This document shows positions 222 to 6,761 of a stretch of DNA of 6,761 nt, in pieces. The notes beneath the pieces are model-generated. The model was given only the letters and a program-made list of their open reading frames with translations. It did no database searches and had not been told where the DNA came from. The stretch covers positions 1 through 6,761 of the forward strand of contig JAJYOS010000362.1 in the NCBI GenBank assembly GCA_021796055.1, given 5' to 3'. This stretch comes from Bacteroidota bacterium. GTDB taxonomy: Bacteria > Bacteroidota > Kryptoniia > Kryptoniales > JAKASW01. The stretch's first letter is position 1. Each line of letters begins with the position of its first letter. A program made the translations under genes and the position numbers.

Positions 222-255
222 GGGCTGCCCAAATCCACCGTTACGCGGGCAGCCC
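222..255 (-). terminator. Hairpin terminator closing the aminomutase operon
   Basis: A perfect 9 bp GC-rich inverted repeat, gggctgccc at 222-230 and gggcagccc at 247-255, with a 16 nt loop. It begins 8 nt after the aminomutase TAA stop (264-266). On the minus strand it is followed by tcatcttttc, a short and imperfect T-tract. Position and stem fit a Rho-independent terminator of moderate strength. The other strand has no T-tract after the stem, so it is unlikely to serve a converging gene efficiently. Confidence 0.7.
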
Positions 256-263
256 GGAGAAAT

Positions 264-1451
264 TTATCCTTCCGTCGGTTTGTCCAACGCAACCTTCACG
301 GCTGCCCGGCTTTTCGATTTCGACGCGCGCCGCCTTCGCTCTCTTATAATGACAGGCTGCTTCCTCAGAAACCTCTCATCGACTTCCGCCGGCTCTGCGA
401 CTCTCGATTGTCCCGTTACCTCGTCGTACTCGAAGACCTCGTACTTGTAATTTCGTACGACGATCTTCTGGTCGTCGTGGTATAGGACATATTGCGGAAG
501 TATCGGTATTTTTCCGCCGCCGCCGGGGGCATCTATAACGAAATATGGAACCGCCAATCCGCTCGTGTGCCCGCGGAGTTTGTCCATGATTTCCAGGCCC
601 GTTTTGATGGGGGTGCGGAAGTGGTTCGTGCTCTTCACCATGTCTGCCTGGTAAATGTAGTACGGACGCACGCGCATCATGAGGAGCTTGCGATTGAGCT
701 CCTTCACAATTTCTGCGTCGTCGTTCACGCCCTTCATCAGGACCATCTGGTTGCCGAGAGGAAAACCGGCGTCGGCAAGAAGATCGCATGCCTGTTTCGC
801 CTCCGGTGTGATCTCCCATGGGTGGTTGAAGTGTACGTTGACATAAAGCGGCTGGTACTTTTTCATCATCTCCACGAGCTGCGGGGTGATGCGCTGAGGC
901 AACACGCAGGGCATTTTCGTGTGCACGCGGATTATCTCTACGTGCGGGATTTCTCGGAGGCCTTGCAACACCTTCTCCAACATGGTGTCGGTGAGCATGA
1001 GAGGATCTCCTCCGGACACGATTACGTCCCTGACTTCAGGGTGAGCCTTTATGTAATCCAGACCATCCTGGATGTACTTCATGCTGATCTTGGTCGAATC
1101 GCTCACTTTCCTTTTCCTCGTGCAGAATCGGCAGTACATCGAGCACTGGCTCGTGACGAGAAAGAGTACTCTGTCAGGATACCGGTGTGTTATGCTTGGA
1201 ACCGGGCTATCATTATCCTCATTCAGCGGATCTATAGGCAGGCCATCGTCCTCCAGCTCCTTGGCGTCTGGTATGCACTGAAGCCAAATAGGGTCGCCGG
1301 GATAGCGAATAAGGCTTAAATAGTACGGATTGATTCTGATGTGGAAAAGGCTGTTAAGCCTTTCGGCAGTTTCTTTGTCAAAGTTGAAACGCTTGACAAG
1401 GTCATCAGCACTGTCAATACTCTGCCTCAGCATCTGCTGCCACAGTTCCAT
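264..1451 (-). CDS. kamA: KamA-family radical SAM lysine 2,3-aminomutase
   Basis: A 395-residue PLP- and S-adenosylmethionine-dependent radical enzyme, expected to interconvert L-lysine and L-beta-lysine in the cytoplasm. The radical-SAM cluster motif CSMYCRFC is at residues 103-110 (Cys103, Cys107, Cys110), followed by Arg112. DAPGGGGK is at 307-314, with Lys314 as the PLP lysine. Compared with the clostridial enzyme as I remember it, these residues fall at a constant offset of 22-23. Asp270 (in YQAD) and Asp307 match the two aspartates that hold the lysine side-chain amine, and Arg112 matches the arginine that holds its carboxylate. This favours lysine over glutamate as substrate. No cysteine occurs after residue 222, so the structural zinc site of the clostridial enzyme is missing. 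The last 25 residues form an unusually basic tail. It starts at an ATG with GGAGG 8 nt upstream and lies 3 bp after the acetyltransferase stop. It is last in the operon. An EpmB-type role (elongation factor P lysine modification) is less likely given the partners. Confidence 0.93.
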   Translation of the reverse strand: MELWQQMLRQSIDSADDLVKRFNFDKETAERLNSLFHIRINPYYLSLIRYPGDPIWLQCIPDAKELEDDGLPIDPLNEDNDSPVPSITHRYPDRVLFLVTSQCSMYCRFCTRKRKVSDSTKISMKYIQDGLDYIKAHPEVRDVIVSGGDPLMLTDTMLEKVLQGLREIPHVEIIRVHTKMPCVLPQRITPQLVEMMKKYQPLYVNVHFNHPWEITPEAKQACDLLADAGFPLGNQMVLMKGVNDDAEIVKELNRKLLMMRVRPYYIYQADMVKSTNHFRTPIKTGLEIMDKLRGHTSGLAVPYFVIDAPGGGGKIPILPQYVLYHDDQKIVVRNYKYEVFEYDEVTGQSRVAEPAEVDERFLRKQPVIIRERRRRASKSKSRAAVKVALDKPTEG

Positions 1452-1454
1452 AAA

Positions 1455-1961
1455 TTAGTCCTCCGAGATTTGTTTAACATAGACCACGAGGTCGTCTCCG
1501 GGGCGGTAGTAATCCTTTATTCTACTCCCCTCTTGATAACCCCGATTCAAATAGAAACTTCTTGTGGAAACGTACTTTTCCTGCGAGCTCGTGTTAACAG
1601 TGATGAGTCTCCCGTGATGTCTGGCTATGTCCGCCTCGGCAAAGGAAAGAAGCTCTGTCCCAATCTTCTTTCCCTGCTGTTCGGGGTCCACGGCAATCCA
1701 GTAAATATCGTAAGTCCCCTCCGTCAGCGGCGTCGGTCCGTAACAGACGTAGCCCGCCACTTTGTCGGTGACGGCAGTATATGTCCAGTATCCGCTTTCG
1801 AGGGATTCGTCGAAGTAGGAGTTGAGGAGCTCGTCGGCTATTCCCACTTCATCTTCGGTGAAGTAATCAGTTCTCTTCAAGATGTCCAGTATCGGGGAGT
1901 AGTCTTCCCTGACTGTGGGTCTAATAAGTACCAACGCTCCTCTTGAAGGCTGATTCGACAA
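1455..1961 (-). CDS. GNAT-family N-acetyltransferase
   Basis: A GNAT-fold acyltransferase of up to 168 residues, expected to move an acetyl (or other acyl) group from CoA to an amine. The fold opens with LVLIRPTVRED (residues 10-20). The acetyl-CoA-binding strand and loop are at 86-103 (IYWIAVDPEQQGKKIG), where Gln96 to Gly101 is the Q/RxxGxG/A pyrophosphate loop with Lys99 in place of the middle Gly. A C-terminal TRSFYLNRGY segment at 133-142 fits motif B. The start is uncertain. The longest frame uses a TTG at 1961 with no Shine-Dalgarno and overlaps ligase B by 41 bp. A TTG at 1934 fits the protein fold better, but its AGGAG lies only 2 nt upstream. It is much shorter than AblB, the beta-lysine acetyltransferase of methanogens, and I do not think it is an orthologue. 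From its position, the likely substrate is an amine of beta-lysine or of a beta-lysyl peptide (inference). Confidence 0.88.
   Translation of the reverse strand: MSNQPSRGALVLIRPTVREDYSPILDILKRTDYFTEDEVGIADELLNSYFDESLESGYWTYTAVTDKVAGYVCYGPTPLTEGTYDIYWIAVDPEQQGKKIGTELLSFAEADIARHHGRLITVNTSSQEKYVSTRSFYLNRGYQEGSRIKDYYRPGDDLVVYVKQISED
1460..1464 (-). promoter_or_regulatory. Shine-Dalgarno of the aminomutase gene
   Basis: A perfect GGAGG on the minus strand, 8 nt before the ATG at 1451. It lies inside the last codons of the upstream acetyltransferase gene. This fixes the aminomutase start and suggests translation of the two genes is coupled. Confidence 0.8.
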
Positions 1962-2991
1962 TATTGTTTATCAGCTGGCCGTAAGTCCAGCCGAAAGCTT
2001 TTGCGCTGCGGGCAAATCCGGATTCTTCGGGCGAAAGATCCGGGTTGGAGTTCACTTCGAGCACGAATACTCTTCCTGTCTTGTCGACACGCATGTCGAC
2101 CCTGGCATAGTCACGGCAGCCCATTACCTGGTACGCCCTGATGGCGGTGTTCTGAATCTTCTTCTGCATCCGCTGGCTGATCTTTGCCGGGCAAATAGGT
2201 ACGGTCGACTTGTATTCGACCGTCTCGGGCATCCACTTCGCTTCATACGATACGATGTGGTGATATCCTTCCGGCATCGAGTTGAAGTCGATCTCCGAAA
2301 CAGGGAGCGCGACCAGCTCTTCATTTCCGACTATAGCGACGTTGAATTCGCGGCCATCTATGAATTGTTCGACGAGTATGGGCTGATTGAATGTCTTCAA
2401 CATTCTCGCGAGCAGCACCTGAAGATGGTCGCGGTCGTAGACCACAGATGCGTTCGATATCCCGGCGCTGGCGTCTTCATGAATCGGCTTGGCAATTACT
2501 GGGTAATTAACCTTCTTCCTCGAAATTTCGTCGGGGGAAGTAAAGACGCGAAATGCGGGCACGTTCAGCTTGTGGAACGAAAGGATCTCCTTTGCTCTCA
2601 CCTTGTTGAGGCAACTTCCGAGCGTCAGCGGACCGCTCCCGGTGTAAGGGATCCTGAGAAGATCGTATAATCCGGCGACATTCATCTCCTGGAAAGAGTC
2701 GCTCTCGATCGCCTCGCAAAAGTTGAGAACCAGATCAGGTTTCTCTTCACGAAGTTTGTCGACGAATCTGTGAATGGCGCTGCTCGTGAGAGTAGTCGAG
2801 ACATTGTAGCCCGACTCCGTCAGGACCTCGACAATAGCATCCACCTGTTCCAAAACGCTCATCATAGAGGTATCCACATTGGTAGTCTTCGAATTCTGCT
2901 CATTTTTGGAGCTGAAGGCCTTTTCGATCTCGGAGCTGATGTCCATCGAAGCCTCGTCATAGACTACCAGGATTTTCTTTTTCTTTGACAT
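1921..2991 (-). CDS. ATP-grasp ligase B, D-Ala-D-Ala-ligase-like (divergent)
   Basis: A 356-residue ATP-grasp enzyme, expected to activate a carboxylate as an acyl phosphate and join it to an amine. Landmarks of the D-Ala-D-Ala ligase family are: PYTGSGPLTLGSCLNK at 115-130 before the ATP-binding lysines; PVIAKPIHEDASAG around 164-177, the flexible loop over ATP; VEQFIDGREFNVAI at 207-220; and a C-terminal metal site CRDYARVD at 292-299 followed by LEVNSNPD at 311-318, giving Asp299, Glu312 and Asn314 as Mg ligands. It is clearly paralogous to ligase A but diverges where substrates bind. It has HEDASAG where A has HEGSSKG, and NSNPDLSPEESGF where A has NPLPGILPDPEEHS. The N-terminus starts MSKKKKILVVYDEAS instead of the usual VALVFNxKRE. 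A different amino-acid substrate is therefore likely. The ATG start has AGAGG about 7 nt upstream. It follows ligase A by 41 bp and overlaps the acetyltransferase. Confidence 0.88.
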   Translation of the reverse strand: MSKKKKILVVYDEASMDISSEIEKAFSSKNEQNSKTTNVDTSMMSVLEQVDAIVEVLTESGYNVSTTLTSSAIHRFVDKLREEKPDLVLNFCEAIESDSFQEMNVAGLYDLLRIPYTGSGPLTLGSCLNKVRAKEILSFHKLNVPAFRVFTSPDEISRKKVNYPVIAKPIHEDASAGISNASVVYDRDHLQVLLARMLKTFNQPILVEQFIDGREFNVAIVGNEELVALPVSEIDFNSMPEGYHHIVSYEAKWMPETVEYKSTVPICPAKISQRMQKKIQNTAIRAYQVMGCRDYARVDMRVDKTGRVFVLEVNSNPDLSPEESGFARSAKAFGWTYGQLINNIVESAFKRSVGTY

Positions 2992-3032
2992 AAGCCGCCT
3001 CTATAGGTTCAACAAATACCGCTAGTTATGAG

Positions 3033-4097
3033 CTATGATAATCCGAGCCTTTTTAACGCCGCGTTTAGCACGGAATTGATCATTTCATCGTAGTTCAACC
3101 CGGCTGCTCTGGATGCCATCGGAAAACAGGAATGCTCTTCCGGATCCGGTAAAATCCCCGGTAACGGATTAATTTCGAGGATGTTCGGATCATCGGCAGC
3201 ATCGAGCCTAACATCGATCCTGCTCCAATCGCGGCACTTAAGGACCTCAAAAGTCTTCCGACAGATTTCTTCGATTTTCTTCCCCAGCCTGTCATTTATA
3301 GGAGCTGGGCATTTGAAGACCTCGATCGGAGAACCCTTGGTGTCCCACAGCCATTTCGCTTCGTAAGAATAAACCGGCAGTGCCTCCGATGGCAACGAAC
3401 TGAAATTCATTTCTACAGGTGGGAAAACTTTCAGTTCACTCCCATTACCAAGCAATGCGACGGTAAACTCCCGTCCGGGCAAATATTCTTCCACAAGCGC
3501 TGGTTGCTCGTAGTTAGCAAGTATTCGTTCAACCTCCTGCCTGAGAGCTTCGGGTGTGGTTACGTAGGAGGAGTTGTAAATTCCTTTGCTCGAACCCTCA
3601 TGCAGCGGTTTAACAAAGAGTGGATATCGCAGTGAAGCATCGGACGCCTCTTCGAAAGACCTAGCGACAACAAACCTCGCAGTCGGAATACCGTGGTAGG
3701 ACAGTATCTCCTTTGTCCTTGCCTTATCGAGACAGGTTGCAAGAGTCAGAGGATCCGATCCGGTATAAGGCATTCCCAGGAACTCCAGCATGGCAGGGAC
3801 CTGTGCCTCTCGACTGACGCCGTTCATTCCCTCAGCAATGTTGAAGACTATGTCGAACCCGCCTTCGCGGAGTTTCTCGTAAGCGAACTCGTCCGCTTCG
3901 ACGAGAGTAACATTATGGAACAGGGACAAAGCCCGCGCGACAGCGTTTATCGTTTCGGGTGTGTCCCATTCGGCATACATGTCTGCCACTTTCTCTTGGA
4001 CCGTTACAGCTTTGAGGGGAGAAGAGTGGGAGGGAATCTGAGTGTCGTCGTCGAACGTGCTCTCTCTTTTCTGGTTAAAGACAAGAGCAACATTCAT
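3033..4097 (-). CDS. ATP-grasp ligase A, D-Ala-D-Ala-ligase-like
   Basis: A 354-residue ATP-grasp amino-acid or peptide ligase and the first gene of the unit. From the N-terminus it shows MNVALVFNQKRE (1-12), the usual opening of this family; FNIAEGMNGVSREAQVPAM (85-103); PYTGSDPLTLATCLDK (110-125); the ATP-loop FVKPLHEGSSKG (161-172); VEEYLPGREFTVAL (202-215); and CRDWSRIDV (288-296) with LEINPLPG (307-314). Asp295, Glu308 and Asn310 are the Mg ligands. The reading frame can be extended to a TTG at 4160 (375 residues), but I reject that start. The TTG overlaps a strong -10 element, the extra 21 residues look unrelated to the family, and the ATG at 4097 has GGGA about 6 nt upstream and gives a length close to ligase B. 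The combination with KamA and a GNAT makes peptide or amide synthesis more likely than cell-wall D-Ala-D-Ala synthesis, for which a canonical Ddl would be expected elsewhere in the genome. Confidence 0.88.
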   Translation of the reverse strand: MNVALVFNQKRESTFDDDTQIPSHSSPLKAVTVQEKVADMYAEWDTPETINAVARALSLFHNVTLVEADEFAYEKLREGGFDIVFNIAEGMNGVSREAQVPAMLEFLGMPYTGSDPLTLATCLDKARTKEILSYHGIPTARFVVARSFEEASDASLRYPLFVKPLHEGSSKGIYNSSYVTTPEALRQEVERILANYEQPALVEEYLPGREFTVALLGNGSELKVFPPVEMNFSSLPSEALPVYSYEAKWLWDTKGSPIEVFKCPAPINDRLGKKIEEICRKTFEVLKCRDWSRIDVRLDAADDPNILEINPLPGILPDPEEHSCFPMASRAAGLNYDEMINSVLNAALKRLGLS

Positions 4098-4158
4098 ACA
4101 TGATCCCGCGTCATGTCCGACTTCAAGTATGTTGGCGGAGCGCCCGTCATTTGCGTTC

Positions 4159-4186
4159 AATATAACGGTTTCTGTTTAAATGTCAA
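4159..4186 (-). promoter_or_regulatory. Sigma70-type promoter of the four-gene operon
   Basis: On the minus strand, TTGACA (4186-4181, perfect -35) is followed after 16 nt by TATATT (4164-4159, five of six bases of TATAAT). Transcription would start near 4152 at an A, leaving a leader of about 55 nt before the ATG at 4097. This is the only near-consensus promoter I found upstream of the unit. No clear operator repeat overlaps it. Confidence 0.72.
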
Positions 4187-4607: not shown

Positions 4608-5498
4608 TCAGAAATTGATGGAAAGCTCCGCGCCCAATGAGTTATTGACAATGCCGAGATGAACCTTCGCCCCGTTTCTGTTAAAAGGAAGGTTCTCGAC
4701 AATTTTCGTACTACCTATCCCGATGATTGCGCCGACGAACACGTCGCTCGGCCAGTGTGCCCGCTCCATAATCCGGGATATTCCCACAATGGTGGCGGTT
4801 CCATACGCCGCATAAGAAACCCACTTCTCCGGATACGAGTCCGCAATCGAAGCCGCCGCTGCAAAAATTGTCGCCGTATGTCCGGAAGGAAACGCATCGT
4901 AGCTTGCGATGCTTTTGCTCCCGTTGTCCCTGTGCTCGAAATATGAGAGAGGCCCGCTCCAGCGTCCGCCTTCCCTCGTCGCCATACTCGGGCGTTCCCT
5001 GCCGAAAGCGTTCTTGAGTATCTGCGTCGCTATGCCGCTGAACAGAAAAGTCTCCATGCCGAGATCGGCCGCCTGCAGCGATGTTTCATCTCCGGTCACA
5101 AAATGGAAAGCGTAGAAACCGCTGAACAGCGCGATCGAGAACGTGCCCAATCCCATCATGCTCACCACCGGACTGACGCTGGACAGCACCGAGCTTCGAA
5201 TCCGAATACCACGCAGATACTCGTACACTTCGTCATCCGATTTAAACAAGCCGTATGTAATAGCAAGCCCGCCACCCACCATTTCCACAGGAGTCAGCAG
5301 TGGTTTCCTTACCGGCGCAAATGCGAGAACCCGTTGCCGCATTCCAGGTGATTTAGTATTTGCACCGACGACTGCATCAGATGCAGAATTCGCCAACGTA
5401 ATTCTCACGGGGTTAGACGAGTCGGAGACGGTGACCGTCCGCGAAGCGTTAACGGGAACCGGGGCGAATAAAAGCCAGCAGCTTAGCAGTAGGGTCAA
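4608..5498 (-). CDS. PAP2-superfamily phosphatase, exported/membrane
   Basis: A 296-residue type-2 phosphatidic acid phosphatase-like protein. All three catalytic motifs are intact: KNAFGRERP at 162-170 (Kx6RP), PSGH at 204-207, and SRIMERAHWPSD at 241-252 (SRx5HxxxD), with His207 and His248 as the expected catalytic histidines. Such enzymes remove phosphate from lipid pyrophosphates, phosphatidates or similar substrates on the periplasmic side. The first 19 residues look like a signal peptide ending at VNA-S. Hydrophobic segments lie at about 72-85, 111-133, 145-160, 209-220, 227-241 and 252-264. The end GIVNNSLGAELSINF alternates like an outer-membrane beta strand with terminal Phe, which is suggestive only. 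The start is doubtful: it uses TTG at 5498 without a Shine-Dalgarno, and the signal peptide then lacks a positive n-region. Substrate is unknown; undecaprenyl pyrophosphate or phosphatidylglycerophosphate are family possibilities. Confidence 0.9.
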   Translation of the reverse strand: MTLLLSCWLLFAPVPVNASRTVTVSDSSNPVRITLANSASDAVVGANTKSPGMRQRVLAFAPVRKPLLTPVEMVGGGLAITYGLFKSDDEVYEYLRGIRIRSSVLSSVSPVVSMMGLGTFSIALFSGFYAFHFVTGDETSLQAADLGMETFLFSGIATQILKNAFGRERPSMATREGGRWSGPLSYFEHRDNGSKSIASYDAFPSGHTATIFAAAASIADSYPEKWVSYAAYGTATIVGISRIMERAHWPSDVFVGAIIGIGSTKIVENLPFNRNGAKVHLGIVNNSLGAELSINF

Positions 5499-5656: not shown

Positions 5657-6761
5657 TCAAATAAGCGTGAGGATAAAGTCGAGGATTTTCTGAGCTACCT
5701 CGTATTTGGGGAGTACGGGAAGTTCCAGCTTATCTGAGCCTCTTCCGGAAAGTATAGTCACTTTGTTTGTCTCTATACCGAATCCGGCGCCTTCTTCGCG
5801 CGGGTTGTTCACGACAATGGCGTCCAGAGACTTCGAAACGAGTTTTTTCTGCGCGTTTTCAATCTCGTCGTCCGTTTCGAGCGCGAACCCGACGAACACC
5901 CGCTTCCCCTTTCTTGGAGCCAACGACTTGAGGATATCTGCATTTTCGACGAGCTCGAGCTTCGCCATGCCCTCTGTGAACTCCGACTTCTTGATCTTTC
6001 GGTCGGGCGGGTTGGCGACTCTGTAATCGGCGATCGCCGCGGTCATGACCAGCGCGTCACACCAGTCGACACTTTTTTCCACGGCCCGGAACATTTCTTC
6101 CGCGGTACGGACGTCTTCCCTGGCGACGTTGCGGGGAGTCTCGAGCGAGACCGGACCGGTTATGAGTTTCACTTCAGCTCCGCGGTTTGCAGCGGCAGAA
6201 GCAACGGCAAATCCCATCCTGCCGGAACTCCGGTTGGAGATAAATCTTACTGCGTCGATAGGTTCCTGTGTGGGGCCTGCGGTGACGAGCAACTTTTTTC
6301 CTGTAAGGTCGCGATGGTGAGACTCGAAAAAGGATTCCACGCTTGCGACAATCTTGCCGACTTCGGCCAGCCTTCCCGGTCCCGTAAGTCCGCTTGCCAG
6401 CTCTCCGACTTCAGGTTCAATTACAAAAACGCCCCGCTCCTTCAGCTTTGAAATGTTTGAAGAGGTAGCCGGGTGGGTGTACATATCGGTGTCCATCGCG
6501 GGGGCGATAATCAACGGCGCGCGGAGCGCCAGAACTATCGATGTAAGAAAATTGTCTGCGATTCCCTGTGTGAGCTTGGCGATAGTCGAAGCCGTTATCG
6601 GCGCTATCAGCATAGCATCAGCCCAAACGCCGAGCTCAATATGCCACGTTCCGACCGAAGTCGAGCGTCTCTGGTCTGGGAACATATCCATGTAAACCTG
6701 ATTGTGGGAAAGCGAAGAAAAAGTAAGCGGGGCGACAAAGTTCGCCGCTGAGGGCGTCATG
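5657..6761 (-). CDS. coaBC: Bifunctional CoaBC (PPC synthetase/decarboxylase), N-terminus cut off by window edge
   Basis: The flavoprotein of coenzyme A synthesis: the CoaB part joins 4'-phosphopantothenate to cysteine using CTP, and the CoaC part decarboxylates the product to 4'-phosphopantetheine. At least 367 residues are visible. The apparent ATG at 6760 is an internal Met (VMTPSA region of the family), and about 35 N-terminal residues with the first flavin-binding glycine loop lie outside the window. The visible CoaC part has the catalytic HIEL (His40, E. coli His75), PAMDTDMY at 87-94 and the clamp ELASGLTGPGR at 120-130. The CoaB part has VTAGPTQEPIDAVRFISNRSSG at 159-180 (Asn176), MTAAIADYR at 239-247 and KIKK at 255-258. 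Spacing to E. coli matches at a constant offset of 35 in the CoaC part. Asp90 replaces the usual Asn of PxMNxxMW, and Ser123 replaces the usual catalytic Cys of the clamp. I believe both are normal for FCB bacteria. Confidence 0.96.
   Translation of the reverse strand, partial: MTPSAANFVAPLTFSSLSHNQVYMDMFPDQRRSTSVGTWHIELGVWADAMLIAPITASTIAKLTQGIADNFLTSIVLALRAPLIIAPAMDTDMYTHPATSSNISKLKERGVFVIEPEVGELASGLTGPGRLAEVGKIVASVESFFESHHRDLTGKKLLVTAGPTQEPIDAVRFISNRSSGRMGFAVASAAANRGAEVKLITGPVSLETPRNVAREDVRTAEEMFRAVEKSVDWCDALVMTAAIADYRVANPPDRKIKKSEFTEGMAKLELVENADILKSLAPRKGKRVFVGFALETDDEIENAQKKLVSKSLDAIVVNNPREEGAGFGIETNKVTILSGRGSDKLELPVLPKYEVAQKILDFILTLI

Follow-up and report, generated by a model that had tools for sequence, protein, structure and literature searches.

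A conserved four-gene operon of Kryptoniales and their relatives, proposed to make an N-acetylated beta-lysyl peptide with two ATP-grasp ligases

Contig JAJYOS010000362.1 of a Kryptoniales bacterium (Bacteroidota; assembly GCA_021796055.1), analysed here over its full 6,761 nucleotides and hereafter called the window, carries a minus-strand cassette of four genes encoding two D-Ala-D-Ala-ligase-like ATP-grasp ligases (LigA and LigB), a GNAT acetyltransferase and a lysine 2,3-aminomutase-type enzyme (KamA). We consider it reasonably probable, from sequence comparisons, that this operon encodes one cytosolic biosynthetic pathway for a beta-lysyl peptide. KamA would convert L-lysine into beta-lysine, LigA and LigB would work through acyl-phosphates, in the manner of D-Ala-D-Ala ligase (Ddl), to form two amide bonds in succession, the partners being other amino acids or small amines, and the GNAT would acetylate a free amine. 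We expect a small N-acetylated beta-lysyl di- or tripeptide that is kept in the cell, possibly a protectant or compatible solute replacing the Nepsilon-acetyl-beta-lysine of relatives with AblA/AblB; the protectant role in particular is plausible but unproven, and we put it forward only tentatively. The individual reactions, the substrates other than lysine, the order of the steps, the product and its role are what we infer from the following genes.

3033..4097, minus strand: LigA, D-Ala-D-Ala-ligase-like ATP-grasp ligase, 354 aa, ATG start preferred (alternative TTG at 4160); assigned from its open reading frame, families and residues, with the start judged from relatives and the -10 box
1921..2991, minus strand: LigB, second, diverged D-Ala-D-Ala-ligase-like ATP-grasp ligase, 356 aa, with EDAS and NPD motifs
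1455..1961, minus strand: GNAT acetyltransferase, at most 168 aa, with a possible internal true start, overlapping the end of LigB
264..1451, minus strand: KamA, lysine 2,3-aminomutase-type radical S-adenosylmethionine (SAM)/pyridoxal phosphate (PLP) enzyme, 395 aa, without a match to the C-terminal part of AblA

The gap between LigA and LigB is 41 bp, LigB and the GNAT gene overlap by up to 41 bp, and 3 bp separate the GNAT gene from KamA. An earlier note on this DNA had described four minus-strand genes with these gaps and named their families; the open reading frames bear out its coordinates and spacing, and Pfam and NCBIfam agree on a KamA-family radical SAM protein, a GNAT and two Dala_Dala_lig_C proteins.

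Analysis of the best 80 of 430 confirmed LigA relatives, obtained from GTDB species genomes with a LigA alignment as query, found LigA, LigB, GNAT and KamA in one order and on one strand in 75 loci, and in the remaining five (L018, L060, L071, L073 and L078) the match came as close as some 120 bases or less to the end of the contig. Median distances across the loci were -1, -26 and 16 bp (starts chosen by script), and the group names in the locus titles were Kryptonia, Ignavibacteria, Melioribacter, Chlorobi, 'Bacteroidetes' metagenome-assembled genomes (MAGs) and a few named relatives. The nearest relative of known origin, a metagenome-assembled 'Bacteroidetes bacterium' contig (L008), matched KamA, GNAT, LigB and the part of LigA present on it with 100% identity. 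In a class sample of 149 genomes (LigA at E ≤1e-80, LAM_C over cut-off), LigA was detected in 100, LAM_C in 107 and both in 97; in 93 of these 97 the two matches shared a contig, their starts separated by 2.6-6.3 kb, and in four they lay on different contigs. LigA occurred without LAM_C over cut-off in G057, G227 and G299, and KamA without LigA was represented by nine long AblA-type genes and by G292, where the match starts at contig base 840.

The most informative genomes came from a phylum sample of 198, in which LigA was required to exceed 300 bits, GNAT to match at E ≤1e-10 and cassette-type KamA to score at least 430 bits (plus a split gene in G142); the 300- and 430-bit limits were chosen after the score lists had been seen, the next KamA below scoring 390 bits. 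LigA was found in 34 genomes, GNAT in 34, cassette-type KamA in 33 and all three in 33, one of the exceptions being G057, whose LigA locus ends within LigB. The genes are dispersed in five of the 33 (G088, G096, G134, G142 and G146, two of them Chloroherpetonaceae by name), and a LigB-like gene is also present there. That these genes are inherited together even when unlinked is our strongest indication that LigA, LigB, GNAT and KamA belong to one pathway, a conclusion that is well supported by the genome comparisons, although P-values are weakened because the genomes share ancestry. The proposal in the earlier note that KamA, two ATP-grasp ligases and a GNAT form one pathway thus gains from the conserved order in 75 of 80 loci and from the joint presence in 33 of 198 genomes.

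All four genes together were observed in no lineage but the Ignavibacteria/Kryptonia/Chloroherpeton branch. The comparisons do not show conservation of the neighbourhood across phyla, which the earlier note had suggested checking: the genes co-occur across the class and in a second lineage, with looser pairings of KamA with an ATP-grasp gene elsewhere. Plasmids were searched with LigB, KamA, the Rhodothermales ligase described below and LigA (best 25, 25, 12 and 20 records, respectively) and with GNAT, and the 17 plasmid stretches viewed (one unannotated) held single genes or other pairings, not the full cassette; the 17 pattern matches on virus contigs included none confirmed as a LigA relative. 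Rare cassettes may exist elsewhere, since the loci are 80 of 430 and the LigA protein matches listed are 120 of about 8000. Among the latter are two names from outside the branch (an 'Acidoferrales' MAG and a 'Rhizobacter' MAG), which may be mislabelled.

KamA sequences of at least 360 aa were mapped on PDB 2a5h. All 69, the window included, keep the CxxxCxxC motif and the equivalents of R134, D293, D330 and K337, of which we take D293 and D330 (2a5h numbering) to be the lysine-binding aspartates and K337 the PLP lysine; the cysteine at position 268, presumably a zinc site, is missing from all 69. Against the AblA equivalog TIGR03820 the window KamA scored 462.4 bits, below the cut-off of 525.4, with the match stopping at model position 366 of 417 and the last 51 positions unmatched, and against the EpmB model it scored 248.2 bits (cut-off 369.3). 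The window KamA is predicted to act on lysine because the lysine-binding aspartates are kept here and altered in some other pairings, so that similar pairings elsewhere may not share this substrate. One Kryptonia-type genome (L016/G006) has the ligases and GNAT but a KamA interrupted by stop codons, either an assembly error or a decayed gene.

Ligase residues were numbered as in E. coli DdlB, beside which 19 ligase rows were aligned. Both window ligases retain K97, K144, E180, E187, R255, D257, E270 and N272, presumably the ATP, Mg and acyl-phosphate residues, and the same set is retained across the 19 rows save for D at E270 in two unlinked LigBs. LigA also retains the equivalents of E15 (AEWDT), S150 (EGSS), G276 and S281, and both ligases have W in place of Y216. 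LigB carries S150 -> A and G276 -> D in all eight LigB-type rows of this alignment; in a set of 41 LigB-type rows, D318 (the G276 position) is invariant and A174 is conserved in at least 90%. By these residues LigB forms a distinct specificity class. At the E15 position LigB has M in the window and E in 65 of 80 LigB rows, the N-terminal alignment being loose.

Neither ligase resembles a housekeeping Ddl by score. Against TIGR01205 (D-Ala-D-Ala ligase, cut-off 245.65 bits) LigA reached 161.7 and LigB 138.0 bits, and both stayed below every Ddl cut-off listed; in all 19 relatives tested one other ligase over the Ddl cut-off was encoded separately, LigA and LigB being below the cut-off there too. 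Ordinary D-Ala-D-Ala ligases, the identity that the earlier note had named as fatal to its proposal, are ruled out by these scores and by the separate Ddl, and the data support LigA and LigB as active-looking, non-housekeeping ATP-grasp ligases. The AlphaFold model of LigB (pLDDT 89.7) has the Ddl fold, and every one of the 50 top PDB folds listed is a Ddl-type ligase. In a tree of 62 rows, LigA (25 rows; support 90/80, not starred) and the LigB group (26 rows; 100/96) form separate clades, with the ligases of the scattered genomes branching outside the cassette genes of each clade and the LigC39 paralogues inside the LigB group. We infer, without proof, that LigA would accept, in the fashion of Ddl, a first substrate bearing a free amine and that LigB would use another donor.

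The 42 aligned GNATs share a TSSxxxYxxTxxFY-like motif. The model of the window GNAT (pLDDT 92.3) has as its nearest solved relative PDB 2r7h from Desulfovibrio (158 bits, TM 0.85-0.95, 37-38% identity), deposited as 'putative D-alanine N-acetyltransferase', an activity name that is itself putative. The protein had no match to the AblB model TIGR03827 (cut-off 205.1 bits) at E 1e-3. In four of the five scattered genomes the GNAT gene lies near a conserved gene; three of these four neighbours were scanned, and all three belong to the Asp/Glu racemase family.

The cassette resembles AblA/AblB in combining a lysine 2,3-aminomutase with a GNAT, but its KamA is below the AblA cut-off, its GNAT is not AblB and two ATP-grasp ligases are added. 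Passages of two papers (PMC9337991, PMC12776343) describe AblA/AblB as making the osmolyte acetyl-beta-lysine, mention a Na+ riboswitch as a possible control of ablA and cite the accumulation of acetyl-beta-lysine in green sulfur bacteria as earlier work. Full-length AblA was found in nine of the 149 class genomes and LigA in none of those nine (Fisher p 2.6e-5, not corrected for kinship). AblB was over cut-off in seven of these nine, below it in one and without a match in one; it was over cut-off in none of 20 cassette genomes, where two weak matches (23-24 bits) occurred, one of them the cassette GNAT itself. The cassette is thus not AblA/AblB under another name, as ruled out for the GNAT, and by score for KamA. 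With EpmA/EpmB/EpmC it shares a KamA-family aminomutase, but EpmA (cut-off 286.9 bits) was over cut-off in 0 of 20 cassette genomes (controls matched in 14 of 14 and over cut-off in two), on which EF-P modification is rejected. These results agree with the view in the earlier note that the operon is distinct from both systems. Ddl and Ddl-like peptide ligases share their fold and catalytic residues with LigA and LigB, and differ at Y216 from both and at S150 and G276 from LigB only. No description of the cassette or its product was found in the open-access literature, as judged mostly from abstracts.

Several observations weigh against a dedicated beta-lysyl peptide pathway or against its role in osmoprotection. 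Neither LigA nor LAM_C was over cut-off in 39 of the 149 class genomes, so the pathway is not universal in the class, and the mutual exclusion of AblA and the cassette may reflect a single clade. In the phylum sample, G097 matches GNAT but lacks LigA and cassette KamA, and G165 has a LigB-type ligase but neither a KamA match nor a LigA scoring above 300 bits. A LigA homologue adjoins an RsmB gene and a LigB-type homologue adjoins a C39-like peptidase gene, each with no KamA beside it; because homologues occur without KamA nearby, the ligases need not use beta-lysine directly. Relatives of the GNAT at 25-35% identity are present in ten plasmid records, and seven of the eight surroundings viewed had no annotated ATP-grasp or KamA gene within 7 kb, the eighth being unannotated; on these plasmids of other phyla the GNAT family is thus found apart from any annotated ligase or KamA. 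No osmotic regulator was recognised among the 14 most widespread flank families, no Rfam family reached its gathering score in any of six sources (the window and five relatives), and a conserved protein of about 292 aa, an EamA-type permease by eye, is encoded downstream of KamA on the opposite strand, 0.2-3.2 kb past the cassette, in six near relatives (L001, L002, L004 and L006-L008).

Four other explanations were considered. The ligases might place a beta-lysyl or acyl-beta-lysyl group on peptidoglycan, lipid or protein instead of building a free molecule; we give this an outside chance. Ddl-like ligases are at home in cell-wall chemistry and LigB-type paralogues adjoin a C39-like peptidase gene, but the flank families listed include no recognised wall, lipid-tagging or carrier gene, those widespread upstream read by eye as housekeeping genes, and beta-lysylation of EF-P is unlikely because EpmA is below cut-off in all 20 genomes. 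A slightly slimmer chance attaches to a variant osmolyte pathway in which KamA and the GNAT alone make acetyl-beta-lysine and the ligases do something else or recycle it. The two genes are adjacent and both conserved, and other genomes of the class have AblA, mostly with AblB; yet LigA is inherited as faithfully as KamA, scattered genomes included, and the lack of an AblB match for the GNAT and of AblB over cut-off in the cassette genomes argue against it.

We regard it as improbable that the genes form a small cluster, independent of non-ribosomal peptide synthetases (NRPS), for a secreted, antibiotic-like bioactive peptide. Beta-lysine occurs in NRPS antibiotics, and a Thioflavicoccus plasmid links KamA and an ATP-grasp gene to diaminopropionate-type genes, but a transporter gene was neither present inside the cassette nor recognised as widespread alongside, and presence in about two thirds of the class genomes (LigA in 100 of 149) is unlike a dispensable cluster. 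It is very improbable that KamA begins lysine degradation with the remaining genes as unrelated passengers: lysine 2,3-aminomutase is indeed the first enzyme of clostridial lysine fermentation, but passengers are not expected to co-occur across the class and when scattered. The PF09043 search for lysine fermentation matched 0 of 22 genomes, but 0 of 14 controls as well.

A beta-lysyl peptide pathway would constitute a fourth use of beta-lysine, besides the osmolyte, EF-P and NRPS antibiotics. It would provide a testable function for two ATP-grasp families that bear generic D-Ala-D-Ala ligase labels in databases, and would point to an undescribed metabolite in largely uncultured bacteria. A broader proposal is that N-acetylated beta-lysyl peptide synthesis independent of NRPS and tRNA occurs widely in the Ignavibacteria/Kryptonia/Chloroherpeton branch as a trait passed on mostly by vertical descent, replacing acetyl-beta-lysine there and representing one of several independent cases in which KamA is paired with an ATP-grasp enzyme to build beta-amino acids into small peptides; this is conceivable, and we lean towards doubting it in that full form.

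Pairings of KamA with ATP-grasp genes in other lineages suggest that ligation of beta-amino acids by such enzymes is a recurring theme. In Rhodothermales a Ddl-like ligase gene stands directly before KamA; these pairs have one ligase, and the cassette GNAT was absent from the three genomes searched (G013, G040 and G060). All five Rhodothermales-type KamAs compared have D293 -> Q and lack two loop glycines, and because of these changes the enzyme probably has another substrate. The pairs (L130-L133 and L143) lie upstream of a gene for a conserved 423-448 aa protein, which has no Pfam family in L132; there, TrkH and TrkA potassium-uptake genes follow, hinting at osmoregulation. On the Thioflavicoccus plasmid pTHIMO01 (L101, NC_019941.1 6691-12172), a KamA with both substrate aspartates adjoins a Ddl-like ATP-grasp gene, in the neighbourhood of a diaminobutyrate aminotransferase, SbnA and an ornithine cyclodeaminase-like gene. 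This cluster has one ligase and KamA on the opposite strand, and GNAT is not among the annotations of the stretch; its combination of diaminopropionate-type genes, ligase and KamA makes it a candidate small natural product locus. On rhizobial plasmids KamA adjoins a different ATP-grasp type, and the second aspartate is C in two rhizobial KamAs; a Deinococcus KamA, like that of Thioflavicoccus, keeps both aspartates. With its different specificity residues, the aminomutase-ligase pairing in other lineages could be a route to new beta-peptides.

Two further features delimit the operon.

4159..4186, minus strand: sigma-70-type promoter TTGACA-N16-TATATT, inside a conserved block reaching the LigA ATG
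222..255, minus strand: hairpin behind KamA, a candidate terminator whose T run is weak, from folding against shuffles

The earlier note had described one strong promoter in front and one hairpin terminator behind; the terminator part is weaker than it stated. The promoter at 4186-4159 is the best of four promoter-like sites in the window, but shuffled sequences give 4.7, so the motif alone proves nothing. Eight near relatives (L001-L007 and L009) share a recognisable block that reaches from the LigA ATG back to a point some 12 nt beyond the -35 box, whereas their DNA further upstream is not recognisable; in a comparison of nine rows, two of them out of register, column agreement in the block is mostly 0.67-0.84 per 12-nt block (0.53 in the last 8 nt) against 0.42-0.52 further upstream. 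Conservation of the surrounding block thus supports the promoter. The LigA start is more likely ATG 4097 than TTG 4160, because the latter overlaps the -10 box, which ends at 4159. Just past KamA lies a hairpin whose outer stem of 10 bp is G+C-rich, but its T run is weak, its z score is -1.55, 14 of 200 shuffles fold equally well or better, and the consensus scan did not list it.

Between the -10 box and LigA, a leader open reading frame of 18 codons (4095-4152, minus strand; mostly M.G...TY.KS.....V) ends in a TGA that overlaps the LigA ATG. It is open at equal length in the window, L001-L005, L009 and, by eye, L006, and differs in L007; it may be coding or may only reflect plain conservation of the leader. 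Upstream of the cassette on the same strand, the genes for a PAP2 phosphatase (4608-5498) and CoaBC (5657-6760) are ruled out as cassette partners, being present in six and four of the 80 fetched loci, respectively. A gene for a protein of about 750 aa, RecG by eye, precedes the cassette in 53 of the 75 complete loci, upstream DNA of more than 2 kb being available in 64 of the 75; it is taken as a matter of position only.

In four scattered genomes (L107, L109, L113 and L115) a conserved 129-159 aa protein, with one membrane helix by eye and no Pfam match in the three scanned, is encoded before LigA and an RsmB-type gene follows. That this protein is a GNAT is ruled out by an hhalign probability of 0.7%. 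Extra-cassette LigB paralogues in L116, L118 and L119 are divergent from a conserved gene, which in L118, the one scanned, gave a weak Peptidase_C39 match; paralogue and C39-like gene are a possible ligase-peptidase pair.

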